Positions 6,361-54,324 of a DNA stretch of 55,185 nt are shown piece after piece. The position numbers and the translations under genes are program-made. Below the pieces are notes generated by a model, which did not search any database, was not told the DNA's origin, and saw only the letters and a program-made list of their open reading frames with translations. This stretch comes from a virus, in IMG/VR virus record IMGVR_UViG_3300017734_000007, positions 1 to 55,185 of that record. One strand, given 5' to 3'. The first letter of the stretch is position 1. Each line of letters starts with the position of its first letter.

Positions 6361-6369
6361 CATCCTGAC

Positions 6370-6391: not shown

Positions 6392-6417
6392 GACACTGGC
6401 CAAGACAGGAGATTTTC

Positions 6418-8569: not shown

Positions 8570-10201
8570 ATGGACTCGACCCAGCCAGACGTTATCCAAA
8601 ATCTTAGAGAAGAGCTAGGCAGTAAGACTGTTGATGAAATAGACGATTTTACTAAAAGCATTGGCGGGCTAACTTTGGATGAGCTTGCCGCTGAAGCACC
8701 AGATAAGTCCGATTCATCAATAACTGAGGCTGAGATTGAGGTCGAGCCTGAGTTTGAAACCCCACCGAGAGATATAACAGACCCGAACGCCCTCGATACC
8801 GAAGAGTTACTTGCAGAGATAAGGGGCGAAGGTACAGCAGAGTTTGGGGATGGCTCCCAGACCTACCAACAAGAAATCCCTGTAAAAGTCAATGTCCCTG
8901 AGGTCACGTCTTATGATTCGGATGATGCAGATGATGAGACATTACCGGCGCCTGAGCCAGAGGATATTTTTGTTGGGGATGAGGTCGCTATTCCGACAGA
9001 TACCTATGATGACTACGATGACGTGTTTGGCGACCCCAGCGGCACAGATCCTTTCGTTGGTGAAGAGATTGCCCCCGAAGGTAATGTAGTCTCAACCACG
9101 ATAAATGATCTCATCAATGCGGTTTTATCTGTACCAACTCCCGGCAGTTTAATACTTGAAGGGATATCTAAAGAGTTTCCTAAAATCGCTCAGGCAATCA
9201 AGGAGGGCACCTACGATCCTGAGTTCGATTATGGCGATGTAGATGACATCACGCTCGATGAGAGAGTTTCTTATATCAGTCCCAACACGGGAGAGCTGAA
9301 CACTAGAAACTTCAACATTGGGGATGACGAAAGAGATCAGCCGTATGTGGACACGTATGTAAACGGTAAGTTTACTCGCGTGTATGGACCTATAGAGAAC
9401 CTGTCAAAACAGTTTGACCCCAGCGAGATACGCGGCGTTGATTTTGATGAGGGTGATGTAGCTAACACGATTCCAATTATTGACGAGTTACCCATACCAG
9501 AGGAAGCGCCTGAAACAGACTTCAAACAGCTTACCAGTGATACGTTTTCTCAAGCAGATGAACCGTTTGTAGGTGATGAGATCGCTGTCGAGCCTGAAGA
9601 CATCGATGACATCGTAGCGGATATAGAGATTCCATACCCTGAGCCCGAGCCTGAACCTGACGACCCGTTTGTTGGCGATGAAATAGATTATTCGGACGAT
9701 GATGAAGAGGATCCATTCGTTGGTGATGAAGTGTTTTATCCAGATGAACCAGATCCAGTAGTGCCTGTGACGGGCGGTGGCGGCGATGACACCTCCACTC
9801 CAACAGAAACCGCTCCGTCTTACGTAGCATCACCGTACAGCGGATTGTTTGGAGACTCTCTACAGTACAATCCCTTCGAGGGCCAAGATCCGTTTGAGTA
9901 CGATACCCCTACGGTCACCGACCCATTCAGGCCGGAAGAACTGTTCGGTTCATATACGTTGTCGAACGATGTGGCTCAGGGATTAGCGGATCTAGTCAAT
10001 GCAGGTTATGCACCTGAATACCTTGAACCAATATCCCAGATGGACGAGGCAAGGAGAGAGCAGGAAGAGATCATGGCGTTGATTGGCGCTCAAATGCCTA
10101 CGGGTACGCCTGTCTCGGATGAAGACTTCCAGTACTTTGAGCTTTCTCCCATCGAGGAAGCGGAGCGTTTAATAGCGGAGTTAAACAATGATCAATCGTA
10201 G
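8570..10201 (+). CDS. Acidic FVGDE-repeat protein, C-terminal part
   Basis: This 543-residue part is Asp/Glu-rich with five FVG(D/E)E motifs (for example EDIFVGDEVAIPTD, DPFVGEEIAPEG, DDPFVGDEIDYSDDD) spaced irregularly, a GGGGDD stretch and a helical C-terminus (MDEARREQEEIMALIGAQM). Upstream the frame stays open back to the TGA at 8408. An internal start at ATG 8570 is possible, with AAAGG 5 bases upstream, so separate translation cannot be excluded. Shared FVGDE motifs tie it to the preceding part. Function is unknown; very acidic repeat proteins can bind metal ions or coat basic partners, but nothing here shows that. Confidence 0.6.
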   Translation: MDSTQPDVIQNLREELGSKTVDEIDDFTKSIGGLTLDELAAEAPDKSDSSITEAEIEVEPEFETPPRDITDPNALDTEELLAEIRGEGTAEFGDGSQTYQQEIPVKVNVPEVTSYDSDDADDETLPAPEPEDIFVGDEVAIPTDTYDDYDDVFGDPSGTDPFVGEEIAPEGNVVSTTINDLINAVLSVPTPGSLILEGISKEFPKIAQAIKEGTYDPEFDYGDVDDITLDERVSYISPNTGELNTRNFNIGDDERDQPYVDTYVNGKFTRVYGPIENLSKQFDPSEIRGVDFDEGDVANTIPIIDELPIPEEAPETDFKQLTSDTFSQADEPFVGDEIAVEPEDIDDIVADIEIPYPEPEPEPDDPFVGDEIDYSDDDEEDPFVGDEVFYPDEPDPVVPVTGGGGDDTSTPTETAPSYVASPYSGLFGDSLQYNPFEGQDPFEYDTPTVTDPFRPEELFGSYTLSNDVAQGLADLVNAGYAPEYLEPISQMDEARREQEEIMALIGAQMPTGTPVSDEDFQYFELSPIEEAERLIAELNNDQS

Positions 10202-31906: not shown

Positions 31907-34900
31907 ATGGCTTTTGATTTAAGTAGACTACGGACGGATCAACTCCTCAAGCTTCAAGGTGTAGGCGGAGACCTCACCCAGCTAAGTACTGAAGAGCTAG
32001 AAGAACTCCTCGAATCTCAGGAAGATATGAGTGATCTTGGTGCTGGCTTCCAGAGAGCAGGCGGCTCTTTCAGACAGGGCATTGCTGGACTACTACGTGA
32101 CATAGCTCCAGAGTACTCAGAAGAATTGTTCGAGTCAGGCGCTAGAGCTATTGAAGAAACACAGCGCCAACGTACCCCAGACATTCCATCATTCAAAGAC
32201 ATCGAAGACCCTCTCGATCTTATCGAGTACACGGGTGAGCAACTAGCCACATCCCTACCTCAGCTTATTGCACAGCTCGGAACTGGTGCAGTTGCAACCA
32301 GATTGGGCGGTCCTAGAGTGGGCACCGCCGCCGCAGTCGGGGCCGCAACTCCATTCTTTACCGGCATGAATATCGAGCGCCAGATTCAAGAGCAAGGTAT
32401 CGACTTCAAAGAGGCAGATGTCGCTAAGGCATTTGGAGTGTCTGTTGGCCAAGGCGCTCTTGATGCACTAATCGGTCGTTACATTGGTGTCTTCGGTCCC
32501 GCTAAAGCTGGTAGCAAGATAGTCAAGGCCACAAAGGCAGGTCTTGGTAAAAAGGTTGCCACGGGTGCCGCTCTTGGTGTTGCTGTGGAGGCACCCACAG
32601 AAGCCGCTCAGCAAGCGCTTGAGATAATACAAGCAGAAAGCACCTTAAAGAATGGTCTTGACCGCTTAACGTCCATGCCTCCTGAGGTACAGGACGAGCT
32701 ACTAGAAGCCTTGGTTGCAGGTGGACTTGTCGGTGGAACCATCGGTGGTGCCGCAGGGCCTTTGCGTCCAGACCCTCCTGACATTGCCAAACGCAGGGAT
32801 CTCGAAGCACACCTCGAAGAGCTACGTGATCAAGTCGCAGAGGATTCTCAAAATCTAGAGCGATTCCGCGCTGAGGCCAGAGAAAGGGGACTGGCAATTC
32901 CCCCGGAGAGACGTCTCCCTCTTTTTGATGACTCTGACATTGTTGTCGCGGCGCAGGAAAAACAGGCCGAGGCGATCAGGGCGCAGGAAGAGGCCGCTGT
33001 CGAGCAAGAACAAAAGCAACAAGATGCGGTCACCATCCTTGAGGCTGACAATGAACTGAAAGCACAAGAACAGCGGTTCAATGAATTGTATCAACCATTA
33101 ATAGGGAAGAAGCTCGAAGAGATTGAGATTGCTGATATTGAAAAGTTTGTTGCCAAGGACGATGCAGATCAAGCTCAGTTAGCAAGAGCCCTTGATGCTT
33201 TCCGTGCGTACAACACGCTGAAGGCTCAGCGGGCAAGAGCGGCTAAGGCAAGAGAGGCCAAAGCAAAGAAGCGCCAAGCGCTCGAATTACAAAAGCAATC
33301 TGAAGAAGAGACCGTTGCGGCAAGAGAACTTGACGAGGCATCTGCTCAGCAGGCCAAGGTAAGGGAGGAGGTCCTACAAGACATTATTGGCTCAAGCCCA
33401 GATGTTGTTTCTGTTGGCAGTGAAGTCCAATTATTCCAGACAATACTGCGTAACGCAGGTATGGACCCAACTCTCACAGCGACAGAGACCCGTCTGATCG
33501 AGCGCAGGAAAGACTTCATTGATCCTCCCTTTGTCGATACGAGGACTCCTGAGCAGACCAAGAAGGGCCAAGCAGTCGGTGTCCGCGAGAGCCTGAAGAG
33601 ACTGACCTCCCTGCAATCACGCAGGCTGGCAGAAGCTAACGCAATTCAGATCAGAGCGAATGCCCAAGATGCTATCAACCTAGGCTACACCCCCGAGTTT
33701 ATGGACAGGGTCCGTAACATCGCCAAGTCTCTGAGACAGGATCTATCAAAGATTGGGCTTGAGGACGTGGCGCTCAAGATAGGCGGTGCAATTCAAGGAA
33801 GCCCAGAAATCGAGGGCGCGACTGATATCGAAAAAGATAGTGGTCGTGTCTCTATATCCCTAGCCGCACAGATTTACAACCCTCAAATGACTGACGAACA
33901 GCTCAAGGCAAAGCTGAAAGAAGTCATGAATCACGAGACCATCCACGCTTTGCGTATGCTGGGTGTCCTGAAAGAGCCTGAGTATAAGTCGCTAGTCAAG
34001 GTGGCCAAGGAGCAGAAGTTTGTTGATAGGTCAGGGAAGGCAAGACTATTCTCATATTTTGACAGAGCACAGGTTCTGTACGCAAAGGATGAAAAAGGTA
34101 ATGCCTTGCCAGAGTCTCTTCAAGAAGAAGAGGCGGTAGCTGAGTTATTCCGTGACTGGGCCGCAGGCCGTAAGAAGATCGCAGGTAAACCACTCAATCT
34201 ATTCCAGAAGATCATCAAGTTCTTCAAGGGTCTTGGCAAGAGTCTTGACAGCGAACAGCTTTCTGACGCCAATCGAATCTTCCAGAGCATCGAGTCAGGA
34301 GAGATTGGTTCAAGGGTCAGGGACAGAAAAGGTGCAGATGCACTTTCTCCGATGCAATCGAGAAGAGCAACGGCTGATTCACCTGCCTTCTTCAACGCAA
34401 CACTCAAGCAACTACAACAGCTTAAAGATAGGTATGACTATAATGATGGCACTTCTGGTTACGCTGTTCGTATGCCAGTCGAAGATTTCATGACACTCAC
34501 ATATGGTGTGGGTAAGGTTAATAAGCAGGATGTGGATAGAGTTGCAAAGGCGTTCCTAGAACGAAATCCTACCAATGATTTGTCAGTCATGGTGAGTAAA
34601 GAGGATTTAGATCCTGACGCAGTGACGCAACCGCGTGAGGCGTTCGCAAGATTTGATCCAGATAAAGTAGACTCACAAAATTACATGGGTATACCTTATC
34701 TTGAAATTAGATTTGATGAAGCGGCTCAAGATCTCAAGGTATACGGGCATGAAGGAAGACATCGCACTGCCCTAGCGGCAATCGATGGGGCAGACACTGT
34801 TCCTGTACAGATTGAATATAAAGAGTTTTATAAAGACTATGATTATAAAAAACGAGTTGGTGAAATCCCACGCGACCAAGAAATGGATTACAAAGAATTT

Positions 34901-37900
34901 GCAAAAGGCAGGAACGTAGTACAGCAGTACTATAATAATCCGCTAGCCCCAGCCTTTGCAGACATAGACATCGATCCGTTTGGAGCTGACCTGCCACAGG
35001 GCGTTCCCATCTATTTCAAATTCAATGAAGAATTAGACAAGTTGATCGGTCCTAAGTCTGACCCATTGTATCCAGATGATGCCGAAGGGACGGCCAAGTT
35101 TTCCAAGCGCATAGCACTCGATGAATGGTTGAAGAACTCTGCTATTAAGGAGCCGGTTTACCACGCAACCATTGATTCTTTCCCAGCTCTGAATCCTGAC
35201 GAGACGCAAGACAAGGCTGTGCATTTTGCCCCTGACATAGAGACTACAGATGGCAGGCTCGAAGAGATTTTCCAGCGTGAAGTTGTGCAAGAGCTGGAAG
35301 ACGGGACGTTAATGTTCCCCCGCAGGATCACAGCTAGAATTCAAATGAACAACCCCCTCAGACTGCCATTCGATCTTGGTAACTGGGGAGATGATAACTT
35401 GTGGCGCTCTGCGCTTGAAGATAGTTCCTTCATGTTCACCCAGAGATATAGGAAAGAGCGCATGGCGAATATTATTCAGTCGCGCCCTGACATACAGAAG
35501 GTCAAGAAGAAGCTTGCCGAGTATAGAAAAGAATTCCCTAACGAGCCTCTTGATGCAGAATCAATTTGGTTAGCCATAGATAGCTCTGGGTTTGACGGGA
35601 TAATTTACACAAACATGGGCGAGGGATATGGCTCGGATTCCTATCTGGTGTGGAATCCTAACCAGATATATGTAGAGGAGATCGAACCTCTCGACTACGG
35701 TGACTTTGAGTTTGCCTTCCAGTTTGATGACCCCAAAGAAAGCATGACACCCGAAGAACTTGCTGAGGTTTCTACACGGCCAGTCATGGGACTGCAAGGT
35801 AAGTTCTTGAGTCCAGAGGATGTCGGGGAGTTAGCAAGAGACAAAGATCTGTTTGAAGAAAGGAAGCGGCAGTTCTCAGGTATCAAGGGAACTGAAGAGA
35901 TCAGAGATCCTCAGCGGATGTTCTCAAGGAGAGGCCCATCAATGTTCGGGGCTTTCTCCAGAGCAGGGCAACAGGAACTAGATTTCGTTCTCAGTAAAAA
36001 TCAAGAAAGGCTTTCCCCTGATTTCGATATACCTGTTCCTCCTATTGCGGTAGCTCAGGGTTATTCAGAAGAAAAGTTTATCCATGTTGGCCCTGAAGGC
36101 ATTACAGACTATGACTTTGACGGCGAGAGAGCAAACGCAGGACTCTCGCCAGAGGGTATATACACGTCAATGAATGATTCAACCTCTGATATGTATGCCG
36201 ATAGGTTGAGGGAAAGGGGGGTTAGACCGTTCAAGTACGAGCTGACTACAACAGCTAGGAATATTTTTGTACTGAATCAGGATAAGCCTAATAGAGGTAT
36301 GATTGATGCGTACAGGAAGAAACTCGAAGAAGATTTTGGAAGTAATACTGGGTACATAGATTCCAAGCTGAACGATTTCATACGCACTGCCGTCCCCCCA
36401 ACAGACATGACAAGGAAGGAGAGGTCTGATATCTATCGTGCTGGAGGGGCAGAGATTCTCCTAGATGGTGAAGATTTTGTTTTTCTGAACAGCAATCAAG
36501 TTCGGGAGGTAACAGCAGATTTTAAACCCGAATCGTTAGGGCGCTCTGGACTGTTCCTCTCTCGCAGAACTCCTGTTATTGCTGAAGACAATCCGTTCGA
36601 CATAGACATGGGGCGGACTACTCTTCCTCTGTATCCAGATCCTGTAGTGGATGAGAGCGGCAAGATTACAGGGTATCGTTTAACAAACGGAGAGCAGTTC
36701 AAGCCAAACTCTGTGAAACTTACAGACGCTGTCGCATATCTTGGTCGCAAGGTATCTGATGTTCTGGGTACAACAGATAAGGTTCCTTACACAGATGACA
36801 ACGTAGAGCCCCTCGCGAAGATCATGGCGACAGAGGCGGTCAAGGCGCTCGAATCAGATAACAACGCTATTGGCTGGTACGACAAGCAAGTCCAAGCCGC
36901 AAAGAGAACACTCAGTCTAGTCGAGCCACGTATATTCGAGACAGGCAGAGACGAGACAGCTTTCGATTGGGCGCTTGCTGTGACATCAAACGGGCAGGCA
37001 GTGACAGACAACTTTGCTTACGCACTTGAGGCGTTCCGTTTCTACAGAGATAAGGGTAGGTTCCCAGTAAAAGAATGGAAGAAAGGTGGGGACCGAAAGA
37101 ATCAGATGCAGAGTGCTTTTGTTTTCTTCAATGAGTATCAGAAGCTGTACGAGGACGGTAGTGTTACCAAGCCAATCGATCAGTTCCTTGACTCACAGTT
37201 CACAGTGAAACAACTGCAAGCAGTGGTTGATGATATCAACCAGCGATTCAATACCAAGATCAGCGTCCCAGCGGACGAGCTTGTGGACACTGTGGTGTTC
37301 GGTTCATACATCGCAGGTCCCAAGATTGGACAAGGTTTCTATCAGAACCTGAGGGGTAACCTCGATCCACTCACGATGGATATCTGGTGGATGCGTATGT
37401 GGAACCGTTACGTCAACCGCCCTTTCGCAACAGAGGCAACGCCAGAACAGTTAAGAACACTGCGTGGCAAGATACGGGGCGTCATACAAAACAGTCGTGA
37501 CGAGGTGATACAGGAAGTAGTGCAGGATGCTTTGCGGGTTACGGGTATACGCAAGTCCGACCTCCGAAACAACAAGACACTCGACCAGTTTATTCCTGCC
37601 CTGCGAAAATCATGGGACAGATACTTCAGGAAGTTCCAGAAAGAACAAGACCGCAACCCAATCAAGCCTCAATTATTTAAGGATGTGAAGACCCTCGAAG
37701 GCAAGCTCTACGGACAGATACAGGCCACGCCAACGAACGGTACTGAGCGTAACTACATGAGGCGGGTAACCAAGAAAGCACAGGGTTTATTGTCCTCAGT
37801 AGGGGTGGACATTGAGACTGCTGACTTACAGGCTTTGATGTGGTATCCTGAGAAGCGTTTGTTCGAGGCCCTTGGTGTCCGCAAGGGAGCAGGACAAGAT

Positions 37901-40900
37901 ACAGACTATGCTCAAGCCGCATACGACCAAGCAAAACAGGAGGGGTATACAGATGAGCAAATCAATGAAGCACTCAGCGATCCAGAAAGAGGATACGTCA
38001 GTACTCGCACAGACCCCAGACAAGTTGATGAAAGAACTGATACTGGGACTGGACAAGCAAGACTCTCAAAGAGGTACAGCGCCTCAGACACGGCAAGACG
38101 TGTCGCCAACAGTGCAGGGGCTGATGGACAAGTATGGGATGTCTCGCGACAAAGCAGAGGCGTGGACGGAAACAACGTAGTTGCGTCCTACTCAGTAAAT
38201 AATCTTTTCGCGCCCATGTATCTCATGGGCGACATCTCAACCCCAGTAGTTCACGAATTAGAACAGTCAGTATCCTCAGCAGAATACTTCAGATCAAAGA
38301 TACAGCAGTCTAAGGATAGCAATCCTTACGGTGCCGCTGTGTATGTCTACCCCGTGATCACAGATCCAGATGACACAGGATATGCAGACATGCGTTTGTT
38401 TGTAACAGACGGTGGTAACGCAGGGTTTGCACTGAAGGGCAATGACATTGTGAGTGTATTCAACACGAGGGGCGGTGGCCTACGTAGTGTTTCGTATCCG
38501 TTAGTGCGGCTTGCTATCGAGCAGGGCGGCAGGAAGCTGGATGCTTTTGACACAATCCTACCTGAGATCTATTCAGCCAACGGCATGAAGACTGCATCCC
38601 GTTTAGTTTGGGACGAGAGTCAACGTCCTGAGGGATGGCGCGACAATGACTTCATTGAGTTCAATAGAGGGCAACCAGATGTTGTATTCATGTACTACGA
38701 GCCTCCAGCCACAGAGTACAAGCCTGATTCTGGGACATATGCTTTAGACTATGCAGAAGCTCTTGAGATACAGGACAGGGCTGTACGCGGAATCAAAGAC
38801 AAGTCTTTCGAAAAAGGTGCAGATGCACTTTCTTCTGACGGACCTAATACAATCAGGTTCTCGAAGAGGTTCTCTTACACTGGTACGCCCAACCCTGAGG
38901 GCTTCTCATCATTCGTTGACAGGGTCATAGCAAAGGACGAGTCAACAGGTCCATTCAACGAATTCATGCGTAAGATGTTTGGCGCGGCCAAGGGTGAGAC
39001 GCTACGAGAAGCGTTTGTACGCAACCATATTAGTAGGTTTAGTCCGGGCTATAAGCTCGATGATATCGTTTACGGAACGAGTTACAACAACCCTGATTCT
39101 GTTGGACGGGCAATGGAAATGTCTCAACAGGTTCTGGGCCGTATTTACGCACTCATGGAGTTCGGACCAGTCAAGGTGGATGTTGATGGCAATGTCGAGC
39201 AGGTGTCCGAAGCAGGCGTTAAGGGGCTCCAAGAGATATTCGCACCACTGCTCGAAGGGCAGACACAGGCGCAAGCAAAAGAGAATGAGCGACAGTTCTA
39301 TGCCTATGCAATTGCAAGAAGAGAGAAAGCATTGCGGGCTGTTGGGCGAAGAGGCTTTCAAAATTTAAGTGACGCAGAGATCGATAGGGCAATAGCCGCT
39401 GGCGACCCAGCGTTCCAAAAAATATTCAACGACTATCAGAACTTCAACAACTACATGGTTCAGTTCGGCAAAGACTCAGGTTTGTTGAATGACCAGATGG
39501 CCGAAGAGTTTGCCAACATGGCTTACGTACCATTCTATCGTTTGCTTGAGACAGCCGAGGGCGACACAGATTTCTCTAACTCCCTCCCGCAGAGAGCGGC
39601 CAATAGTTTGATGCAGAAGGGAGCGTTTGATCGAGAGCTTGTAGGGAGTAACTTCCAAGTCTCGGGCGACCTACTCAAGAACATCTATCGTAATAACGAG
39701 ATGATCATATCTGCTGGTCTGCGTAACATCGCAATGCGTAAAACTTCTGAGGCATTAGAGAAGCTACAAGATCCATCTTGGGGAGAGAAGGCTGACCTCA
39801 CGAAGCCGCAAGGCAACGTCATGAAGTTCAGGGTCAATGGTGAGCAAGTCGGATATAAGATTCGGGACGGTGCACTGTGGCATGCACTGTCTGGTTTGAC
39901 GCCCCAACAGAAGGATGCATACATCAAAGCGGCAGAGATGTTCGCAAATTTACTGCGAGTCGGTGTCACAAATATGCCCGGTTTTATGGTAGCAAACCTT
40001 TGGCGGGGAAAAGTGGATGCCTACATCAAAGCTGGTGTCCCAATTGGCATAGGATCGAAAACTTTCAGCCGCATGAACCAGTCTATGAGAGACGGCAAAG
40101 ATGCAATGGCCATCAAACTTCTCACTGGGTTCGGTGGGTATTCTTTCGGTGCAGATCCAGCAGACTTTGCCTCGACCGCAAGACGGCTTGGCAGAACTGG
40201 GGGCAGGATCATACAGAAGGACACGCCTGTCGCGGCTGTTGCTACAGGATTCAAGAACCTGCTCCAGAAAGTAGAGCGGTTCGGTGAGTCAACAGAGCTT
40301 GAGGTTCGTATCGGTTTGTACCAGAAACTTATCGCTGAGGGTGTGTCTGAAAGAGAGGCCGCATTCCAAGCGATGAACCTAATCAACTACGGTAGGAAAG
40401 GAGCCGGTGGTGGTATCACTGGACAACTACTGGTCAACCGACTCATCCCTGCAATCCCGTTCTTGAATGCACGTATCCAAGGTCTGTACCGTTTAGCAGA
40501 AGATCCAAGGCTACCAGCAGATGAGCGTCAGGCATATTGGCAAGGGATAATGAATCGTGGACTTCTTGTGATGGCAGTTTCTGCCACGCTGGGGGGTCTG
40601 GCAATGTCAGATGATCGCTGGGAGGAAGAGTCATTACAAAACAAACTGAACTACGACATCATCTATATCACTGATGATCAGGCAGTAAGGATACCAAGAG
40701 CGTTCGAGCTAGGCGCCATATTCGGGACATTCCCTGTGTTCGCAATTGATGCAATCAGGCAGGAAGATGGCTCTGATCTTGCTATGGCGGTACTCCATAC
40801 ATTTGCCAACACGTTTGCCTTCAACCCAATACCACAGGGCGTGATGCCTGCACTAGAGGTTGTGACAGGGTATGACTTCTTCAGGATGGCCCCACTAGAG

Positions 40901-41521
40901 GGTATGGCGCTACAAAGAAAGATGACATCAGATAAGTACTACTCATCTACTCCGCACGTCTACCGATTCCTGAGTGAGGCTGGATTGGATAAGTTGACGC
41001 TGAGTCCTCTGGAGATTCAACAGTTACTCGAAGGATACATGGCAGGCTTGGCTACGATCCCAATAGGGATAGCTGAAAGCGTCATGGCTTGGACGGGTGC
41101 AGTGCCACAGAAACCAAATGGTGTATTCGGTAATCCATATGTCACAGAGGCTGGCAGAGTGCTTGGACTAACTAGATTCATACAGCAAGACGGAGAAAGT
41201 TCCAGCCAGTTTGTCAGGGACTTCTATGACCTCAGGCGCGAATCAGATGCTGTGTTTACATCTTATCGTGATGCGGCGGCTACAGGCGATCAGGATCGCA
41301 TGAATGAGTTACTCGAAGATCGCGGTGTCGCTATGGGGTTCCGCAAGACGTTCAATCGTGTAGCGAAGCAACTGACTGACATCAACAACGCCATGAATAG
41401 AATAGTCGAGAGCCCGACTATGTCGCCTACACAAAAGACACAGCAACTCAGGCAACTCAGGATACAAAAGAACAAACTAGCAAGACGTATTGTTGAGCTA
41501 GCTGAGAAGCAAGGGATATAA
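31907..41521 (+). CDS. Giant polyvalent virion protein (3204 aa)
   Basis: GGAGG lies 6 bases before the ATG. Features in order: Gly/Ala-rich possible membrane segments (about 100-290); a Glu/Lys/Gln coiled coil (300-480); HETIH at 676-680 with EEEAVAELFRDW later, a zincin-like peptidase pattern; GHEGRHR at 947-953, like a ParB/DNA-processing motif; an ADP-ribosyltransferase-like region from YHAT (1085) to GFDGIIYTNMGEG (about 1228); a second ART-like region (about 1385-1530); a conserved block FGSYIAGPKIGQGFYQN (about 1800); and an LPD38-like region with LLRVGVTNMPGFMVANLWRG (about 2680). This combination is known for phage polyvalent proteins, thought to enter the cell with DNA. (F/L)S(K/R)R motifs recur at junctions. 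Palindrome copies 8 and 9 lie inside. Confidence 0.7.
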   Translation: MAFDLSRLRTDQLLKLQGVGGDLTQLSTEELEELLESQEDMSDLGAGFQRAGGSFRQGIAGLLRDIAPEYSEELFESGARAIEETQRQRTPDIPSFKDIEDPLDLIEYTGEQLATSLPQLIAQLGTGAVATRLGGPRVGTAAAVGAATPFFTGMNIERQIQEQGIDFKEADVAKAFGVSVGQGALDALIGRYIGVFGPAKAGSKIVKATKAGLGKKVATGAALGVAVEAPTEAAQQALEIIQAESTLKNGLDRLTSMPPEVQDELLEALVAGGLVGGTIGGAAGPLRPDPPDIAKRRDLEAHLEELRDQVAEDSQNLERFRAEARERGLAIPPERRLPLFDDSDIVVAAQEKQAEAIRAQEEAAVEQEQKQQDAVTILEADNELKAQEQRFNELYQPLIGKKLEEIEIADIEKFVAKDDADQAQLARALDAFRAYNTLKAQRARAAKAREAKAKKRQALELQKQSEEETVAARELDEASAQQAKVREEVLQDIIGSSPDVVSVGSEVQLFQTILRNAGMDPTLTATETRLIERRKDFIDPPFVDTRTPEQTKKGQAVGVRESLKRLTSLQSRRLAEANAIQIRANAQDAINLGYTPEFMDRVRNIAKSLRQDLSKIGLEDVALKIGGAIQGSPEIEGATDIEKDSGRVSISLAAQIYNPQMTDEQLKAKLKEVMNHETIHALRMLGVLKEPEYKSLVKVAKEQKFVDRSGKARLFSYFDRAQVLYAKDEKGNALPESLQEEEAVAELFRDWAAGRKKIAGKPLNLFQKIIKFFKGLGKSLDSEQLSDANRIFQSIESGEIGSRVRDRKGADALSPMQSRRATADSPAFFNATLKQLQQLKDRYDYNDGTSGYAVRMPVEDFMTLTYGVGKVNKQDVDRVAKAFLERNPTNDLSVMVSKEDLDPDAVTQPREAFARFDPDKVDSQNYMGIPYLEIRFDEAAQDLKVYGHEGRHRTALAAIDGADTVPVQIEYKEFYKDYDYKKRVGEIPRDQEMDYKEFAKGRNVVQQYYNNPLAPAFADIDIDPFGADLPQGVPIYFKFNEELDKLIGPKSDPLYPDDAEGTAKFSKRIALDEWLKNSAIKEPVYHATIDSFPALNPDETQDKAVHFAPDIETTDGRLEEIFQREVVQELEDGTLMFPRRITARIQMNNPLRLPFDLGNWGDDNLWRSALEDSSFMFTQRYRKERMANIIQSRPDIQKVKKKLAEYRKEFPNEPLDAESIWLAIDSSGFDGIIYTNMGEGYGSDSYLVWNPNQIYVEEIEPLDYGDFEFAFQFDDPKESMTPEELAEVSTRPVMGLQGKFLSPEDVGELARDKDLFEERKRQFSGIKGTEEIRDPQRMFSRRGPSMFGAFSRAGQQELDFVLSKNQERLSPDFDIPVPPIAVAQGYSEEKFIHVGPEGITDYDFDGERANAGLSPEGIYTSMNDSTSDMYADRLRERGVRPFKYELTTTARNIFVLNQDKPNRGMIDAYRKKLEEDFGSNTGYIDSKLNDFIRTAVPPTDMTRKERSDIYRAGGAEILLDGEDFVFLNSNQVREVTADFKPESLGRSGLFLSRRTPVIAEDNPFDIDMGRTTLPLYPDPVVDESGKITGYRLTNGEQFKPNSVKLTDAVAYLGRKVSDVLGTTDKVPYTDDNVEPLAKIMATEAVKALESDNNAIGWYDKQVQAAKRTLSLVEPRIFETGRDETAFDWALAVTSNGQAVTDNFAYALEAFRFYRDKGRFPVKEWKKGGDRKNQMQSAFVFFNEYQKLYEDGSVTKPIDQFLDSQFTVKQLQAVVDDINQRFNTKISVPADELVDTVVFGSYIAGPKIGQGFYQNLRGNLDPLTMDIWWMRMWNRYVNRPFATEATPEQLRTLRGKIRGVIQNSRDEVIQEVVQDALRVTGIRKSDLRNNKTLDQFIPALRKSWDRYFRKFQKEQDRNPIKPQLFKDVKTLEGKLYGQIQATPTNGTERNYMRRVTKKAQGLLSSVGVDIETADLQALMWYPEKRLFEALGVRKGAGQDTDYAQAAYDQAKQEGYTDEQINEALSDPERGYVSTRTDPRQVDERTDTGTGQARLSKRYSASDTARRVANSAGADGQVWDVSRQSRGVDGNNVVASYSVNNLFAPMYLMGDISTPVVHELEQSVSSAEYFRSKIQQSKDSNPYGAAVYVYPVITDPDDTGYADMRLFVTDGGNAGFALKGNDIVSVFNTRGGGLRSVSYPLVRLAIEQGGRKLDAFDTILPEIYSANGMKTASRLVWDESQRPEGWRDNDFIEFNRGQPDVVFMYYEPPATEYKPDSGTYALDYAEALEIQDRAVRGIKDKSFEKGADALSSDGPNTIRFSKRFSYTGTPNPEGFSSFVDRVIAKDESTGPFNEFMRKMFGAAKGETLREAFVRNHISRFSPGYKLDDIVYGTSYNNPDSVGRAMEMSQQVLGRIYALMEFGPVKVDVDGNVEQVSEAGVKGLQEIFAPLLEGQTQAQAKENERQFYAYAIARREKALRAVGRRGFQNLSDAEIDRAIAAGDPAFQKIFNDYQNFNNYMVQFGKDSGLLNDQMAEEFANMAYVPFYRLLETAEGDTDFSNSLPQRAANSLMQKGAFDRELVGSNFQVSGDLLKNIYRNNEMIISAGLRNIAMRKTSEALEKLQDPSWGEKADLTKPQGNVMKFRVNGEQVGYKIRDGALWHALSGLTPQQKDAYIKAAEMFANLLRVGVTNMPGFMVANLWRGKVDAYIKAGVPIGIGSKTFSRMNQSMRDGKDAMAIKLLTGFGGYSFGADPADFASTARRLGRTGGRIIQKDTPVAAVATGFKNLLQKVERFGESTELEVRIGLYQKLIAEGVSEREAAFQAMNLINYGRKGAGGGITGQLLVNRLIPAIPFLNARIQGLYRLAEDPRLPADERQAYWQGIMNRGLLVMAVSATLGGLAMSDDRWEEESLQNKLNYDIIYITDDQAVRIPRAFELGAIFGTFPVFAIDAIRQEDGSDLAMAVLHTFANTFAFNPIPQGVMPALEVVTGYDFFRMAPLEGMALQRKMTSDKYYSSTPHVYRFLSEAGLDKLTLSPLEIQQLLEGYMAGLATIPIGIAESVMAWTGAVPQKPNGVFGNPYVTEAGRVLGLTRFIQQDGESSSQFVRDFYDLRRESDAVFTSYRDAAATGDQDRMNELLEDRGVAMGFRKTFNRVAKQLTDINNAMNRIVESPTMSPTQKTQQLRQLRIQKNKLARRIVELAEKQGI
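34327..34348. repeat. Dispersed palindrome, copy 8 (inside the giant gene)
   Basis: Core GTGCAGATGCAC, A-rich and T-rich flanks. It encodes KGADALS (residues 808-814), ten residues before an SRR motif at a domain junction. Confidence 0.7.
38812..38833. repeat. Dispersed palindrome, copy 9 (inside the giant gene)
   Basis: Core GTGCAGATGCAC, the same as copy 8. It encodes KGADALS (residues 2303-2309), followed by FSKR at 2318-2321. Confidence 0.7.
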
Positions 41522-48811: not shown

Positions 48812-49804
48812 TTAAAAATCAAGCTGATCAAGCACAGCATTCTTGAGCCGTCTCTCATATAGACTCTTGGCCTGAGAGATCGTGATCCCTGTCCCCTCGA
48901 TAGGGACCTCATATTCATCCTTATCGACTGTGCATACTGAGTCATTGATAACATGGTAATACTGGAAGTGTACAGGTTTCTTGTTCTGCACCTTTTCAAT
49001 ATCCCTTTCGAGTTGATTGATAATCGCGGCATACTCTTGAGAACTCCAGTTCTCTTCTCTCGACCTTATGTTTGCCATAAGCATCTGCTCTTTAAGATGG
49101 GTGATCCAAGCCAGAGGAGCCCGACCGTAACCAGAAAAATTGTGGATCGTGCACTCATCTAGGCCGTGAGGCTTGGAAGGGATAAGCCTGCCATCAACAT
49201 TGAAGATGGTCTCTTTGCTGACAGTCACGGTAGCAAATCGACTGCTTACACGATGTGGCCACAGGTGCGAGATCACTGCTGTAAACCGCTTGGAGTCCGC
49301 AGATGACATGACTCTAGGTACGTCATCTTCGAGTACGCGATTGCCGAATGACTGAACCTCGACATTCATCCTGTCTACCCAGTGCGGAGCGTCCCGATTG
49401 AACTCTCTCCATGCGCTGTTGTACACGGACTCTTTAATCTCAGCTAAGCGATCACCCCAGTTATAAGACGCAGGCGCCCGCTCACTGACACGTATGTCCT
49501 GAATGGTTGCCGCATAGCTCTGGATTGTCCGAACACAGTCAAGCCATGTCTTGCGTCCCAGCGTCTTGGCTGAGACCAGCATATAATCGTCAGCCTCCCA
49601 CTGCCGAATGATATCCTTGATCGCTGTGCAGAACTCGACCTCATCATCTGATTTACGAAGCATCTGCAACCAGTCAGCACTCTGATCCCTGTCATAGACG
49701 ATCCACTTGATCAGGTTCGGAGGGATCCCCAGATATTTGGCCCTGACTTGAATCATCTCATTCAGCATCGGGACCATGTTCCTCTTTGTGAAATTGTTTT
49801 CCAT
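48812..49804 (-). CDS. Protein of unknown function (330 aa)
   Basis: A 330-residue soluble protein, probably alpha-helical with a beta middle. Blocks are MVPMLNEMIQVRAKYLGIPP, ASYNWGDRLAEIKESVY, and a late helical part (AAIINQLERDIEKVQNKKP). I recognise no family. GAGGA precedes the ATG. Its leader holds pseudoknot element A, 26 bases from the start. It is the last gene of the MoxR-region operon. Confidence 0.6.
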   Translation of the reverse strand: MENNFTKRNMVPMLNEMIQVRAKYLGIPPNLIKWIVYDRDQSADWLQMLRKSDDEVEFCTAIKDIIRQWEADDYMLVSAKTLGRKTWLDCVRTIQSYAATIQDIRVSERAPASYNWGDRLAEIKESVYNSAWREFNRDAPHWVDRMNVEVQSFGNRVLEDDVPRVMSSADSKRFTAVISHLWPHRVSSRFATVTVSKETIFNVDGRLIPSKPHGLDECTIHNFSGYGRAPLAWITHLKEQMLMANIRSREENWSSQEYAAIINQLERDIEKVQNKKPVHFQYYHVINDSVCTVDKDEYEVPIEGTGITISQAKSLYERRLKNAVLDQLDF

Positions 49805-49830: not shown

Positions 49831-49880
49831 CGGCCAGTCAGACCGAGCATGTGCCCCGCAGGGCACATGGGCAGGTGACT
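49831..49880 (-). ncRNA. Pseudoknot-like leader element A
   Basis: Read leftward: AGTCA, then CCTGCC, then a nine-pair hairpin (CATGTGCCC, loop TGCG, GGGCACATG), then CT, then the stem CGGTC with GGCCG closing the loop TGACT. The loop TGACT can pair with the 5' AGTCA to form a pseudoknot. The TAG stop of the upstream gene supplies the first bases of AGTCA. The next ATG is 26 bases downstream. Confidence 0.7.
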
Positions 49881-50175
49881 AAGCATGGTTTGCCTGAGTC
49901 TGGTTTTCGTCTTTCCGTCTCTGGAATTCTTTCTTGGCGAACTCTCTTGCGGCATAGATACCCTCATCAGCATTCAGACCATCAGCTAACTTCTCAGCTA
50001 TCTTGGTCAGCTTGAGCCGTATGTCCAGCTCTTGCCTCGCAGTTCGGAAATCGAACTCGTCTGTGTATACGATGCCTAAGATTCTTCTGACAGCGGCCTC
50101 ATGTGCCTCCGCTTTCACGCCAAGGAATTCCTTCGGAGGGATCCCCATTCTTGTTAACATGTCATTCATGTTCAT
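49879..50175 (-). CDS. Helical protein of unknown function (98 aa)
   Basis: A 98-residue mainly helical, charged protein (AEAHEAAVRRILGIVYTDEF, then RQELDIRLKLTKIAEKLADG). GGAG lies 7 bases upstream and the start overlaps the preceding stop. Its stop codon lies in pseudoknot element A. No family is recognised. Confidence 0.55.
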   Translation of the reverse strand: MNMNDMLTRMGIPPKEFLGVKAEAHEAAVRRILGIVYTDEFDFRTARQELDIRLKLTKIAEKLADGLNADEGIYAAREFAKKEFQRRKDENQTQANHA

Positions 50176-50389
50176 GATTTGTCTCCACTTTTATGACTTC
50201 AAATTCTTCAGATACGTGGTTCAATGCGAACCATTGCAGGCAGTCCTCGACTGAGTAACAAAAGAGCTGAGTCTGCTCATCATCACTACAGTGGAGTACA
50301 GCGTGGGCCTTGCTTGGCCCAGCTCCGTGACCATCTTCCACGCCATAAACCTCAGCGCGTACAATGGTGAGTCCGGTTGGTGTGCTCAT
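50162..50389 (-). CDS. Small protein of unknown function (75 aa)
   Basis: Start at ATG 50389 (MSTPTGLTIVRAEVYGVEDG), supported by AGGAG 8 bases upstream; the longer reading frame would run through pseudoknot element B. The protein holds short strands, a Cys pair (HCSDDEQ, SVEDCLQWF) and FALNHVSEEFEVIKV. It overlaps the next gene. Function is unknown. Confidence 0.55.
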   Translation of the reverse strand: MSTPTGLTIVRAEVYGVEDGHGAGPSKAHAVLHCSDDEQTQLFCYSVEDCLQWFALNHVSEEFEVIKVETNHEHE

Positions 50390-50414
50390 AGTATTTCTCC
50401 TTTTATGCTCACAG

Positions 50415-50468
50415 CGGTCCAGTGAGACCGATCCAGTGCCCGATACACAGACACTGGGGCAGGTCACT
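50415..50468 (-). ncRNA. Pseudoknot-like leader element B
   Basis: Read leftward: AGTGA, CCTGCC, hairpin CCAGTG with CACTGG around a 13-base loop, AT, then CGGTC and GACCG closing the loop TCACTG. The 5' AGTGA pairs with TCACT in the loop, a compensated change against element A. The TAG stop of the 35-aa gene overlaps the first bases. The next ATG is 25 bases downstream. Confidence 0.7.
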
Positions 50469-50574
50469 AGAACTTCCATTTGTCCTTATCATCAGAAAAC
50501 CAGAAGGCTATAAGGCCCACTGCATAGACAAGGCAAATCAAGGCAACGGATGCAAAGCTGGTGTATTCGGTCAT
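50467..50574 (-). CDS. Small membrane protein (35 aa)
   Basis: A 35-residue protein with one membrane helix (FASVALICLVYAVGLIAFWF) and a charged tail DDKDKWKF. The ATG overlaps the upstream TGA as ATGA, GGAG lies 10 bases upstream, and the stop starts pseudoknot element B. These contacts on both sides support a real gene despite its size. Function is unknown; it could be a holin-like or membrane-anchored peptide. Confidence 0.6.
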   Translation of the reverse strand: MTEYTSFASVALICLVYAVGLIAFWFSDDKDKWKF

Positions 50575-50846
50575 CTCGATGTGCTCCAAGGGTTTGTGGA
50601 TTTATCCCTCATCTTTTTGAGGAACTCCTCAGCGTAGGCTTTGTTGCGGTCTGCAACCATGCCTGACTCCTTCAGGTAATTGATAGCGTTAGTCAGCTCC
50701 TCAATATCCTGATGCATCTCAGCCACGGTGTCAGGGTCAGAGATCAAGTGAGTAACCTTGTAGGTCAGATCATCTACGCGAGACGCGCAGTTGTCTACCA
50801 GTACTCGAATGGCGCTCTTGATAGCGCCCTCATGAAGTTCAGTCAT
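50571..50846 (-). CDS. Helical protein of unknown function (91 aa)
   Basis: A 91-residue helical protein with coiled-coil-like stretches (TVAEMHQDIEELTNAINYLK, KAYAEEFLKKMRDK). ATG 50846 is chosen because GGAG lies 6 bases upstream, directly after palindrome copy 14. It overlaps the 35-aa gene by four bases. No family is recognised. Confidence 0.55.
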   Translation of the reverse strand: MTELHEGAIKSAIRVLVDNCASRVDDLTYKVTHLISDPDTVAEMHQDIEELTNAINYLKESGMVADRNKAYAEEFLKKMRDKSTNPWSTSR

Positions 50847-50857
50847 ATCATTCTCCA

Positions 50858-50879
50858 AAAAAGTTCACATGCACTTTTT
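50858..50879. repeat. Dispersed palindrome, copy 14
   Basis: Core GTTCACATGCAC, same as copy 3. It lies between the VWA gene stop and the 91-aa gene. Read leftward, its T-run is followed at once by GGAGA. Confidence 0.85.
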
Positions 50880-50883
50880 GACA

Positions 50884-50903
50884 TGGTCAGCTTACGCTGA
50901 CCA
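50884..50903 (-). other. Hairpin at the end of the VWA gene
   Basis: TGGTCAGC, loop of four, GCTGACCA: an eight-pair perfect hairpin that overlaps the last codons and stop of the VWA gene, five bases from palindrome copy 14. It could act with the palindrome as a boundary structure. No T-run follows directly. Confidence 0.5.
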
Positions 50904-52020
50904 CATCTCCGAATGGTGCGGCTGTAGCGCCAGTGGATACCCATAGCACCGGATAGTCAGGTGCCTGTGGGAAATCATGCACATACAGGTCTGTGAAGTA
51001 CACCATAGAATCGACAGGCAGGCCCTGCTCATCAATGTAATTGAATGCAGGCGTGACCCGTGTGCCGCCACGGCCCTTGGCATTGAGTGACTCGATCACC
51101 TCGCCCTCATAGTACGTAGTCACAGACTGTACCTGAGTGTCGCAAGTAATGATCGTCACGGACGTAGGCGCCATGTCCTCAGAGATCGCATTCAGCTCAC
51201 TGAGATACATGTTCAGCTCCTCCTGCGTAACAGAACAGGAGGAGTCGATCACGGCCACGATGTTGCCCACACCATTGTGCTCGACACTGGGCATGTAAAT
51301 GCCACAGGAGGCCAGCATCTTGCGATTGGGTTTCCGCATGGTGTAGTCATCAGGCTGGTCACCTCCCACGAACAGACGCAACTTGTCACGCCAGTCAACC
51401 TTGTTAGTGGTCAAAACATTGACCAGCTCATCAAGGCCAGCGGGTATCTTGCCGATATTCTTGGCAGTGGTAGCGGCCTGCATGACCAGACGATCTGCCT
51501 GCGCCTCCATCTCCTCAAGCTCCTCACCGGAGACAGGATCACCGTCACCGTTGGTAGGTTGCTTGATATCACCGAACTTCCAGCCCTCGCCCTTAGGACG
51601 ATCAGCGGTGTCCAGCAGGCGGGGATAGATCGCCTCAGCAGACATGCCTTTGTACTGAGGGTCAAACAAACCCTCAGGAGGCATCTCCAGTCCGCTGTCG
51701 ATACAGATCTGGTTGATAGCGTAGTCAGTCGCCATATTCCAGACCTCATGGTCACGGCCATCACAACGCATCGGATGCTTGAGTGCCACATGCATGATCT
51801 CGTGGACAACCACGAACAGTACCTGATCGAAAGGGAGCCGCATGACAAATTCAGGATTGTAATCCACTGTCCTGCCATCGGTGCACATCGTAGGGATTGA
51901 TGAGTCCTCAATGAACTGCATACCCATAGCGATGGCGCCAAAGAATGGATGCTTGATCATCAAGCGGGTCTTGACCCGCGAGATGACGAACTGGGCATCC
52001 TGATTGAGTGCCTGAATCAT
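50887..52020 (-). CDS. VWA / DUF2201-like metallopeptidase protein (377 aa)
   Basis: An N-terminal part with HEIMH (residues 73-77), the zincin pattern seen in DUF2201 proteins, and a C-terminal von Willebrand A domain with MIDAS DSSCS (259-263), later GGTRVTPAF giving the Thr, and YFTDLYVHD giving the Asp. In bacteria these proteins pair with MoxR ATPases to remodel partner complexes. The start overlaps the MoxR gene stop by four bases (ATGA), so they are co-translated. N4-like phages carry a similar ATPase/VWA pair (recall). The substrate is unknown. Confidence 0.75.
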   Translation of the reverse strand: MIQALNQDAQFVISRVKTRLMIKHPFFGAIAMGMQFIEDSSIPTMCTDGRTVDYNPEFVMRLPFDQVLFVVVHEIMHVALKHPMRCDGRDHEVWNMATDYAINQICIDSGLEMPPEGLFDPQYKGMSAEAIYPRLLDTADRPKGEGWKFGDIKQPTNGDGDPVSGEELEEMEAQADRLVMQAATTAKNIGKIPAGLDELVNVLTTNKVDWRDKLRLFVGGDQPDDYTMRKPNRKMLASCGIYMPSVEHNGVGNIVAVIDSSCSVTQEELNMYLSELNAISEDMAPTSVTIITCDTQVQSVTTYYEGEVIESLNAKGRGGTRVTPAFNYIDEQGLPVDSMVYFTDLYVHDFPQAPDYPVLWVSTGATAAPFGDVVSVS

Positions 52021-53072
52021 GATGCCTTCTCCTCAAGTACCAGAAGCTTCGCGTCACCAGTCAGCCAGTCACGCACCTCCTTGACATCGTGAGCCCACTT
52101 GCGGATCTCAGCCTTGCCATTGAGATTGACCACGGTCTTCATAGCGAACGCACTGTACTCCTGCGCTGGGATACGGTTGATGAACCGAACCAGATTGGCA
52201 GACGTGGACTTCTTGACCCGATAGGCAAGGGATGCACACAGGGCATATGCCATTGCAGGCTCAGAAGGGATCTCAGCATTGTCTGGATCAGTGAACGGGG
52301 CATCGATGTCAGGCATCGCATCACACATTTGCAGGTGCACCTCGAACATGGCCGTAGTGCCCTCGCCCAGAGTCCCGCACAAAGCGATGTGCTGGGCCAT
52401 TGGGCTCAGCTTCCAAGACAGGATCTGGTGAGCCTTCTCCCAAGAGCGAGGGGATGGACATGCATTCACGTCTTTGTCGAACTTGGACAGGTGCTCAGGC
52501 TGGAAGCGCAGGAAGCTTAGGATGCGATTGTCGATCCCATTGACCGCCATGTACTGGAGCGCATCATCAAGGTCAGGCACGATGGTGATGTGCAGTAGAC
52601 GATCCTTGAGGTGAGAAGGCATGGCGTTGGTACCAGCGCGATGATGCATCTGGTTGCCAGCACAGACCACAGTCCATCCGTCAGGCAGAACGTGCTCACC
52701 GATACGGCGCTCATTGACCAGTTGACCAATGATGTTCTGGTTGGCGACAGGAGCCTGTGGCAGTTCATCCACGAACAAGATACCGACACCCTCAGTGGGC
52801 AGGTACTGTGGACGCAGGCGGATCATACGCTCACCCTGAGCCCAAGGCAGACCGCCCAGCTCACCAGCGTCATACTGGTTGGCGCGGAAATCCATGAAGC
52901 CGATCTCCATGTCCTGTGCCAGAGCCTCGACAGATGCCGTCTTACCGGCACCTGCCACACCCCAAAGCATTGGGGTCACGTACTGGCTTGAGCGGCCAGT
53001 CAATTGCTGATTCGCCAGAACACTGGCGCGAACGATTTCCACAGCAGTGGATAGGTTTGTAGTTTGATTCAT
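52017..53072 (-). CDS. MoxR-family AAA+ ATPase (351 aa)
   Basis: ATG 53072 with GGGAG upstream. Walker A GVAGAGKT (38-45), Walker B GILFVDELPQAP near 94-105, and a sensor-1 strand with VVCAGNQ. This is the MoxR group, ATPases that remodel protein complexes with VWA partners. The gene follows pseudoknot element C and palindrome copy 15 and is coupled to the VWA gene. Its phage role could be remodelling of the host or virion assembly; nothing here decides. Confidence 0.85.
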   Translation of the reverse strand: MNQTTNLSTAVEIVRASVLANQQLTGRSSQYVTPMLWGVAGAGKTASVEALAQDMEIGFMDFRANQYDAGELGGLPWAQGERMIRLRPQYLPTEGVGILFVDELPQAPVANQNIIGQLVNERRIGEHVLPDGWTVVCAGNQMHHRAGTNAMPSHLKDRLLHITIVPDLDDALQYMAVNGIDNRILSFLRFQPEHLSKFDKDVNACPSPRSWEKAHQILSWKLSPMAQHIALCGTLGEGTTAMFEVHLQMCDAMPDIDAPFTDPDNAEIPSEPAMAYALCASLAYRVKKSTSANLVRFINRIPAQEYSAFAMKTVVNLNGKAEIRKWAHDVKEVRDWLTGDAKLLVLEEKAS

Positions 53073-53092
53073 TGTTACTCTCCCATTGGAAA

Positions 53093-53114
53093 AAAAAGTG
53101 CACATGCACTTTTC
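53093..53114. repeat. Dispersed palindrome, copy 15
   Basis: Perfect core GTGCACATGCAC. It sits directly after pseudoknot element C in the MoxR leader; read leftward its right side is a run of eight T, seven bases before GGGAG. Confidence 0.85.
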
Positions 53115-53167
53115 CGGTCAGTCAGACCGATCATGCACACCACAGAGATGTGCATGGGCAGGTGACT
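53115..53167 (-). ncRNA. Pseudoknot-like leader element C
   Basis: Read leftward: AGTCA, CCTGCC, a hairpin CATGCACA with TGTGCATG, AT, then CGGTC and GACCG closing the loop TGACT. The loop can pair with the 5' AGTCA. It begins three bases after the stop of the upstream gene. The next 22 bases are palindrome copy 15. Without them the distance to the MoxR ATG would be 20 bases. Confidence 0.7.
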
Positions 53168-53170
53168 GGA

Positions 53171-53764
53171 TTAGTCATCAAGGGTATCGAGCATCACGTC
53201 AACATCATCAGCGACAGTGTCACCCTTTGCCTTTGCCGCCTCCTCAGCGGCCTTGGCCTCCTGCATCTCGCGGACTACGTCCAGCAGGCGGTCATACTCA
53301 GCATTGTCGAGCTTGAGGATTTGCTCAGCCAGCTTGTGGACCTTGTCCACTTCAGGCTTGAACTTGTCAACCAGCTTGCCTTGTGAGGTGATACCGGCGG
53401 CATCCAGAGTCAGGGCGACAGACACAGAGTCTGTGCACTCCATCAGCTCAGGCATGACAGGCAGAAGCTTCTGAACGTTCTCTGAGTAGCGCTTGACGTT
53501 GGAGCCAGAGACACCGGCATCCTCAAGCTGTTGACGCAGAGACTCCATGACCTTGACAGGAAGACCTTGTTTTTTGCCACGGTTGACCAGCTTGACGCCA
53601 GACACAGCGATGTCAGCGATGATGTGCTGGTAGGCAGTCATGACCGCCTCCTGCTTCTCATTTGAAAGATCAGCCGCCTTGGCCTTGAGGCCGTCTGCCG
53701 CAGTGATAGCCTGTGCGATTTCAGTAGCTGAAGCGAGAGTGAAATTTACTTTTGAGTTTGCCAT
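53171..53764 (-). CDS. MoxR-operon first protein of unknown function (197 aa)
   Basis: ATG 53764 is chosen because GGAGGA lies 6 bases upstream. The 197-residue protein is helical, with NFTLASATEIAQAITAADGL near the start, a middle VMESLRQQLEDAGVSGSNVK, and an Ala/Glu-rich acidic end (EAAKAKGDTVADDVDVMLD). It is the first gene of the leftward operon and probably works with the MoxR/VWA pair. Its leader has pseudoknot element D. I do not recognise a family. Confidence 0.6.
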   Translation of the reverse strand: MANSKVNFTLASATEIAQAITAADGLKAKAADLSNEKQEAVMTAYQHIIADIAVSGVKLVNRGKKQGLPVKVMESLRQQLEDAGVSGSNVKRYSENVQKLLPVMPELMECTDSVSVALTLDAAGITSQGKLVDKFKPEVDKVHKLAEQILKLDNAEYDRLLDVVREMQEAKAAEEAAKAKGDTVADDVDVMLDTLDD

Positions 53765-53797
53765 GAGAATATCCTCCATATTGGCTTGGTTTGAAAA

Positions 53798-53850
53798 CGG
53801 TCAGTGTGACCGATACAGAACCCGTGACAGGATGCTGAGGCAGGACACTG
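53798..53850 (-). ncRNA. Pseudoknot-like leader element D
   Basis: Read leftward: CAGTGT, CCTGCC, a hairpin CAGCATCC with GGGTTCTG (one mismatch and one G-T pair), AT, then CGGTC and GACCG closing the loop ACACT. The 5' AGTGT pairs with ACACT, a second compensated change. It lies 33 bases before the first gene of the operon and near the end of the large untranslated region. Confidence 0.65.
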
Positions 53851-54324
53851 ACAGAGGCAGGTATTCCAACCCGCCTCAAACACGAAAACCCCGAACCAAC
53901 TTGCAAGCGCTCAGGGTAGTTCCAACATTGACGAATGACTCAGTACAAGGCACTGCTGATCTCACTTGGCTTGGGTCACCCCCTCTGCGCGTCCGATTCA
54001 CACGATCCGCTTGTCAGCTTGGCACAGGCACCGCCTGTCACCGTCTCCCATCGCTACACGTTAACCGTGGGCTCCTCACTCCGCGCAATGGGTGCAGTGT
54101 GAGTTGAAAGCCGTTTGTCAGGTCTGATATGGACTGCTGTCCTGTCAGCGCACCAACCGGATGGCGAATCCCCTGTGGGGTAGAGCCTGAGCGGTGCCCA
54201 CGAGCGAGGCACTGCAATCCGTTGACCCATTATAAACACAGGTAAAAATATATAACAACACCTATCGGCATAAAAAAGTAGAAAAAGTCACAGAGCCCAG
54301 AAAGTACACTGGTTGCAGGGATCA
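53851..54324. other. Gene-free structured region, origin or large RNA candidate
   Basis: About 475 bases with no supported gene. The 53851-54220 part is GC-rich with many hairpins, including GAGGC-GGT (53853-53877 area), ACAGGC-ACC-GCCTGT (about 54023-54038) and CCCC-TGT-GGGG. A ten-base repeat CCGYYTGTCA occurs at 54007, 54031 and 54111. It is followed by an AT-rich stretch (54228-54290). This combination could be a replication origin, a long leader, or a large structured RNA. Nothing in the sequence decides. Confidence 0.5.

Follow-up and report, generated by a model that had tools for sequence, protein, structure and literature searches.

The window analyzed here is the whole 55,185-nucleotide stretch at positions 1 to 55,185 of IMG/VR virus record IMGVR_UViG_3300017734_000007. 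This work describes a structured leader RNA that occurs four times in this marine phage DNA, as elements A to D. All four copies lie on the minus strand, and each precedes a gene of a single minus-strand cluster; one of these genes encodes a MoxR-like AAA ATPase (Table 1). As an earlier note on this DNA had reported, every copy is built from the same parts in the same order: a 5′ strand AGTNN (S1a), a linker CCTGCC, a hairpin (P3), WT, a strand CGGTC (S2a), a loop strand NNACT (S1b), and a 3′ strand (G)GRCCG (S2b). In 4 of 4 copies, S1a and the loop are fully complementary (AGTCA/TGACT, AGTGA/TCACT, or AGTGT/ACACT). The placement of all copies in one operon was likewise confirmed, with element-to-start gaps of 25 nucleotides (nt) for B, 26 nt for A, and 33 nt for D; the gap of 42 nt for C is owing to an intervening palindrome.

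Further members of the family were sought in IMG/VR, where related contigs and loci are designated here by L numbers. A first pattern scan contained chance matches, and only copies with pairing between the 5′ strand and the loop were kept; among the matches listed, relatives were present in at least a dozen further contigs. A second scan was complete and unbiased, in that the 5′ strand and the loop were both left free. It gave 47 copies that have AGT and pair at 5 of 5 positions, the remaining random matches pairing at 0 to 4 positions, and it also retrieved L110:2783, in which ACTGT/ACAGT is a compensated double change at a G-C pair that is invariant elsewhere. A covariance model, which the earlier note had proposed as a check, was built and searched, and diverged copies in L110, L191, and L172 were recovered. 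CGATC/GATCG replaces CGGTC/GACCG in a diverged clade (L110:5383, L191:1088, and L196:889); L172:2480 no longer has the half comprising S2 and the loop, and the copy at L052:4948 has decayed and lies in tandem with an intact element. In all, the family comprises at least 31 distinct intact sequences in approximately 17 contigs, with 1 to 5 copies per contig, all within one gene cluster, and at least 11 unrelated gene families are found downstream of the element. The contigs belong to two phage lineages, HTVC023P-like and HMO-2011-like: the portal protein of the window phage is 42 to 44% identical to those of Pelagibacter phages HTVC023P and HTVC027P, and the DNA polymerase of the element-bearing HMO-2011 relatives is 62% identical to that of HMO-2011.

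Outside these contigs, searches were negative. Model R1 detected no element in HMO-2011, HTVC023P, HTVC027P, CRP-1, CRP-7, CRP-902, DSL-LC04, or MinM2 (one noise match, E value of 0.45), blastn against phage isolates gave no match to the elements, and the element was absent from 54 of 54 further loci bearing the AAA gene. A scan with a loose pattern of the CGATC/GATCG clade lacked specificity and gave no new members, and a generic six-frame descriptor returned only noise.

Folding was assessed on a structural alignment of 31 distinct sequences, in whose selection P3 played no part. The paired cells of P3 comprise 234 Watson-Crick, 37 G.U, 0 A.C, and 8 other combinations, those of S1 comprise 152, 2, 1, and 0, respectively, and those of S2 comprise 148, 7, 0, and 0. 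Over the paired positions as a whole, G.U outnumbers A.C by 46 to 1, an asymmetry which shows that it is the mRNA-sense strand that folds. The nine best-covarying of 1225 column pairs are all proposed base pairs (six in P3, two in S1, and one extension pair). Measured against a simple tree-based null of our own rather than R-scape, six pairs gave E values below 0.1, with values of approximately 0.2 for S1_5, 0.28 for P3_5, and 2.6 for the extension pair, all from an alignment that spans few phage groups and in which sequences recombine. The alignment holds 78 double-changed cells compared to 29.8 in shuffled alignments, and a slide control was concordant. S1 pairing reaches 6 to 7 base pairs, with the nucleotide before AGT pairing with the nucleotide after ACT. 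Both predicted helices, S1 and P3, are strongly supported by this covariation. Linker positions 1, 3, and 4 are unchanged in 31 of 31 sequences (C-Y-U-G) and the S2 core is invariant, beside a freely variable hairpin; this is a pattern that would be expected of a catalytic or ligand core. Within one genome (window elements A to D, L004, and L110), the hairpins all differ, and the same hairpins recur across genomes; the diversity within genomes perhaps reflects selection against recombination between copies.

The earlier note had described the fold as a pseudoknot. Of that description, the S1 and P3 components stand on their covariation; S2 competes with a nested alternative. By energy folding, the structure is fully nested: S1 encloses a helix between the linker CUG and the CGG of S2a, followed by P3, at −17 to −29 kcal/mol (z scores of −2 to −4.3). 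Mean energies are −24.4 kcal/mol for the nested fold versus −21.1 for P3 plus S2, with approximately −7 for the S2 hairpin and approximately −3.3 for the CUG/CGG helix. S2 (CGGUC/GRCCG) and the CUG/CGG helix draw on the same CGG. For S2, three related copies show one compensatory change (A-U in place of G-C), and U.G variants also occur. The diverged clade has U, A, and U in place of linker C2, S2a G3, and S2b C3, respectively, a joint change that, being confined to one clade, counts as one event. Either a pseudoknot with a base triple or two helices that exclude each other would fit this three-way change. The linker C2/S2 base triple, our first reading, is claimed here no more than the nested alternative, which equally explains the change as a C-G pair replaced by U-A. 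A pseudoknot is a possible form of this RNA.

Comparison with known RNA families was negative throughout. Single elements searched against Rfam, even at E values of ≤10, gave no match except chance eukaryotic families far below threshold, and at gathering and relaxed thresholds the elements were without meaningful match. The twister, twister-sister, pistol, hatchet, HDV, and hairpin models did not match at E values of ≤5 (4.3 kb holding the four copies) or ≤10 (single elements). The hammerhead models RF00008 and RF02276 did not match the elements, and CUGANGA and GAAA are absent from 31 of 31 sequences. The element lies outside Rfam 15 and the isolate phage collection, and it is without every known core tested. 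Given the absence of an Rfam match and the observed covariation, the proposal of a structured leader RNA, not previously described and with covarying pairs, is supported. Mu-gpT-DE, at positions 6363 to 6420, is the sole gathering-level Rfam match in the window and is unrelated to the elements.

The evidence that weighs most is genomic context: the element occupies positions otherwise held by known self-cleaving ribozymes. Relatives of the AAA gene were retrieved without bias, and hammerheads were identified partly by scores above the Rfam gathering threshold and otherwise by core pattern and stems. L362, L364, L374, and L375 carry a hammerhead where the window has element C, and further hammerheads precede other genes in related contigs. 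Leaders of the AAA (MoxR-like) family carry the element in 9 cases and a hammerhead in 6; those of the P0002 family carry the element in 6 cases, a type II hammerhead in 4, and a core-order hammerhead in 5; and those of the GLPTTID family carry one of each. The hammerheads at shared positions are of type I/III or type II. A rough binomial estimate for this sharing of gene families is approximately 1e-5, a figure biased by the AAA-centered choice of loci and by relatedness. Hammerheads and the element also alternate within single operons (L129, L130, L216, and L197); in the HMO-2011-like L197, two hammerheads and one element run in the same direction. In L129, L130, and L216, a gene either follows its neighbor closely or with overlap, or is preceded by a gap of approximately 75 to 200 nt that holds a hammerhead or an element; the apparently empty gaps in L130 and L216 hold small open reading frames (ORFs) or probable coding sequence. 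The exchange is most striking at element D. The 90-nt leader before it is near-identical in L129 and similar in L004, and after this leader, the element (window and L004) or a hammerhead (L129) starts within approximately 2 nt of the same point.

Clustered hammerheads are known to flank prophage genes; a role in processing long phage transcripts into mRNAs of single-gene length has been proposed for them, and cleavage has been shown for tandem sets (PMC3088659). The finding of two classes of ribozyme at similar sites has served as a rationale for seeking new classes (PMC10085705), and by that argument the element is a candidate self-cleaving ribozyme. We consider it probable that the element represents a new class of intercistronic self-cleaving ribozyme and not a riboswitch. 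Its likely role being that of known self-cleaving ribozymes, it would be of a known kind and a candidate new structural class. In its fuller form, which we favor by a narrower measure, the proposal is of a new ribozyme class of approximately 50 to 60 nt, with one variable hairpin, an invariant linker of the form C-Y-U-G, and either a pseudoknot or a helix that can be exchanged, which marine phages would use interchangeably with hammerheads to cut polycistronic mRNA ahead of individual genes. Under this proposal, S1 and the P3 hairpin would fold co-transcriptionally in the polycistronic early-operon transcript, the nested CUG/CGG helix would be kept or swapped for S2 with the downstream GRCCG (the pseudoknot), and the RNA would cut itself within the conserved core. 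Each gene would then head a processed mRNA of its own that carries a 5′-hydroxyl and a folded leader, as has been suggested for the hammerheads of phage operons. By loose analogy to the hammerhead, we would guess that the cleavage site lies in the region of the invariant C-Y-U-G linker.

Several points weigh against a ribozyme. Among candidates found near ribozymes by similar logic, none of those tested cleaved except hammerheads (PMC10085705). Self-cleavage and its effect on the mRNA are inferred, and the element carries no known catalytic core sequence among those tested (CUGANGA/GAAA and others). Many orthologous genes have neither RNA, such that the position tolerates absence, and the spread is narrow (approximately 17 contigs and none of eight isolate genomes). 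The element and the hammerheads could, moreover, share a position for reasons other than cleavage. A non-catalytic intercistronic RNA might do the same job as the hammerheads by acting as a cut site for a phage or host RNase, a protector of the 5′ end of the downstream mRNA, or an insulator of its ribosome-binding site (RBS). The exchange with hammerheads shows equal position rather than equal chemistry, the nested fold is very stable (−16 to −30 kcal/mol), and in every copy the site immediately precedes the ribosome-binding region, all of which would suit such a function. However, neither a plain stabilizer nor an RNase site would require the C-Y-U-G linker to be invariant or an S2 strand to compete, and we regard this alternative as unlikely.

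The earlier note had likened the element to small pseudoknot riboswitches, and a pseudoknot-type riboswitch or a protein-binding translational operator acting on the downstream gene would account for the leader position, for a 55-nt fold able to form a pseudoknot, and for two mutually exclusive helices on CGG, with one clade in which three positions change together. Yet the likeness is not supported: the downstream genes belong to at least 11 unrelated families, the Shine-Dalgarno sequence lies outside the fold and is covered by neither helix, a terminator-like palindrome follows only some copies, hammerheads replace the element, and an orthologous gene exists without it. Such a regulator is very improbable. 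We give still less credence to a DNA-level element, i.e., an operator, or a recombination or mobile-cassette site (integron attC-like or of the kind seen in the promoter/stem-loop cassettes of T4), in which the RNA fold would be incidental. Several observations would suit it. Orthologous elements C and D in closely related phages can bear wholly different hairpins with a downstream gene that is 93 to 96% identical, copies are repeated at gene borders (including the decayed tandem copy in L052), and presence and absence are clean at an orthologous site. In L421, the ortholog of the gene downstream of the HMO-2011-like element shows a clean 74-nt absence between the upstream stop region and the Shine-Dalgarno sequence, and a hammerhead precedes another gene of the same contig (approximately 1137 to 1192). 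Against a DNA site, the folding strand is the sense strand, and the element is always gene-oriented, directly precedes a gene, and alternates with RNA enzymes; modular mobility is also compatible with a ribozyme.

With respect to other systems, the preQ1 and SAM-II small pseudoknot riboswitches share with the element a short, pseudoknot-capable 5′ leader with a linker and an inserted hairpin; the element differs in its unrelated downstream genes, the exclusion of the RBS, the lack of an Rfam match, and the exchange with ribozymes. The autoregulatory pseudoknot of T4 gene 32 is a phage leader pseudoknot present in a single copy before its own gene, whereas the element occurs in many copies before unrelated genes. 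Cluster K mycobacteriophages reportedly carry start-associated sequences, conserved elements repeated just upstream of start codons within one genome. These are short sequence repeats, in contrast to a covarying fold of 50 to 60 nt. The closest likeness in context is to the type I/III and type II hammerheads (RF00008 and RF02276), which share the genes, position, size, and operons of the element and are exchanged with it at the same leader. They also have an outer stem, and in two hammerheads of HMO-2011-like phages its AGTGT/ACACT is identical to S1. Unlike them, the element is without CUGANGA and GAAA, has one hairpin and a 3′ strand (S2b), and is missed by the Rfam hammerhead models. Twister-sister, pistol, and hatchet are comparable in that such new classes were sought near ribozyme-associated genes (PMC10085705), and the hairpin loop of pistol also forms a pseudoknot, of six base pairs (PMC6154101); the element differs from all three in strand order and conserved nucleotides, and no Rfam model scores on it.

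Small self-cleaving ribozymes fall into about ten structural classes, nine well studied and one proposed (PMC10085705). If the element is a ribozyme, it would add a further class at exact hammerhead positions and widen the catalytic folds of RNA, and a single operon would open to testing a long-standing question, namely what phages gain from self-cleaving RNAs ahead of individual genes and why ribozymes of different kinds can replace one another there. Natural material for such work includes several variants, the diverged clade (L110, L191, and L196), decayed copies, and the empty site.

Table 1. Coordinates of the elements, neighboring genes, palindromes, and hammerheads (window positions unless a contig is named)
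Feature	Position	Strand	Details
Element A	49831..49880	-	S1a AGTCA 49880-49876; linker CCTGCC 49875-49870; P3 49869-49848; CT; S2a CGGTC 49845-49841; S1b TGACT 49840-49836; S2b GGCCG 49835-49831; model R1, 67 bits
Element B	50415..50468	-	S1a AGTGA; linker CCTGCC; P3 50457-50433; AT; S2a CGGTC; S1b TCACT; extra G 50420; S2b GACCG; model R1, 73 bits
Element C	53115..53167	-	S1a AGTCA 53167-53163; linker CCTGCC 53162-53157; P3 53156-53132; AT; S2a CGGTC 53129-53125; S1b TGACT 53124-53120; S2b GACCG 53119-53115; model R1, 75 bits
Element D	53798..53849	-	S1a AGTGT 53849-53845; linker 53844-53839; P3 53838-53815; AT; S2a 53812-53808; S1b ACACT 53807-53803; S2b 53802-53798; model R1, 65 bits
Leader upstream of D	53850..53939	-	
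Palindrome AAAGTGCATGTGCACTTT	53095..53112	-	Between element C and the AAA gene; separate element, among ~16 dispersed palindromes
Gene P0003, downstream of A	48812..49804	-	330 amino acids (aa), unknown
Gene downstream of B	50162..50389	-	75 aa, unknown
Gene P0001, downstream of C	52017..53072	-	MoxR-like AAA ATPase (phrog_1297); element or hammerhead before P0001 in 15 loci
Gene P0002, downstream of D	53171..53764	-	No database family; element or hammerhead before P0002 in 15 loci
Palindrome AAAGTGCAYRTGCACTTT sites	2722, 6372, 11705, 17639, 24226, 26361, 30522, 34329, 38814, 41580, 45158, 48361, 50860, 53095, 54327		
Hammerheads, L129	2383, 2910, 3235, 3575, 4322		
Hammerheads, L130	3911, 4184, 4524, 5267		
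Hammerheads, L374	3642, 4420, 4942		

Among minor observations, some marine phage operons carry a hammerhead in nearly every real gap, up to five per operon. A small unlisted ORF (approximately 35 aa, hydrophobic) at about 50469 to 50575 on the minus strand of the window terminates at a TAG overlapping element B, and small ORFs resembling it fill the L130 gaps at 8793 to 8917 and 9309 to 9410. An ORF of 3204 residues at window positions 31907 to 41521 probably encodes a large virion protein. One element, together with phage genes, was found at positions 11962 to 13920 of L217, at the end of a contig (CAKZNR010000238) from a Cellvibrionales metagenome-assembled genome (MAG). The rest of this contig holds bacterial genes, some chemotaxis- or pilus-like by eye, and may reflect a prophage junction or a misassembly. 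Because the contig joins bacterial and phage genes, Cellvibrionales is a weak host clue; 392 genomes of the order of this MAG gave only partial chance matches besides the MAG contig itself.

The palindrome between element C and the AAA gene belongs to a dispersed set of near-perfect palindromes, AAAGTGCAYRTGCACTTT, with approximately 16 sites in the window versus 1.1 expected, whose variants change both arms together. Most of these sites immediately precede Shine-Dalgarno sequences, in either direction, with some inside ORFs, and they also occur in related contigs. They may be operator/stoperator-like or act as weak terminators. The Mu-gpT-DE match overlaps the palindrome at 6372 to 6389, and the Mu-gpT-DE hairpin may here be a palindrome of the same kind.

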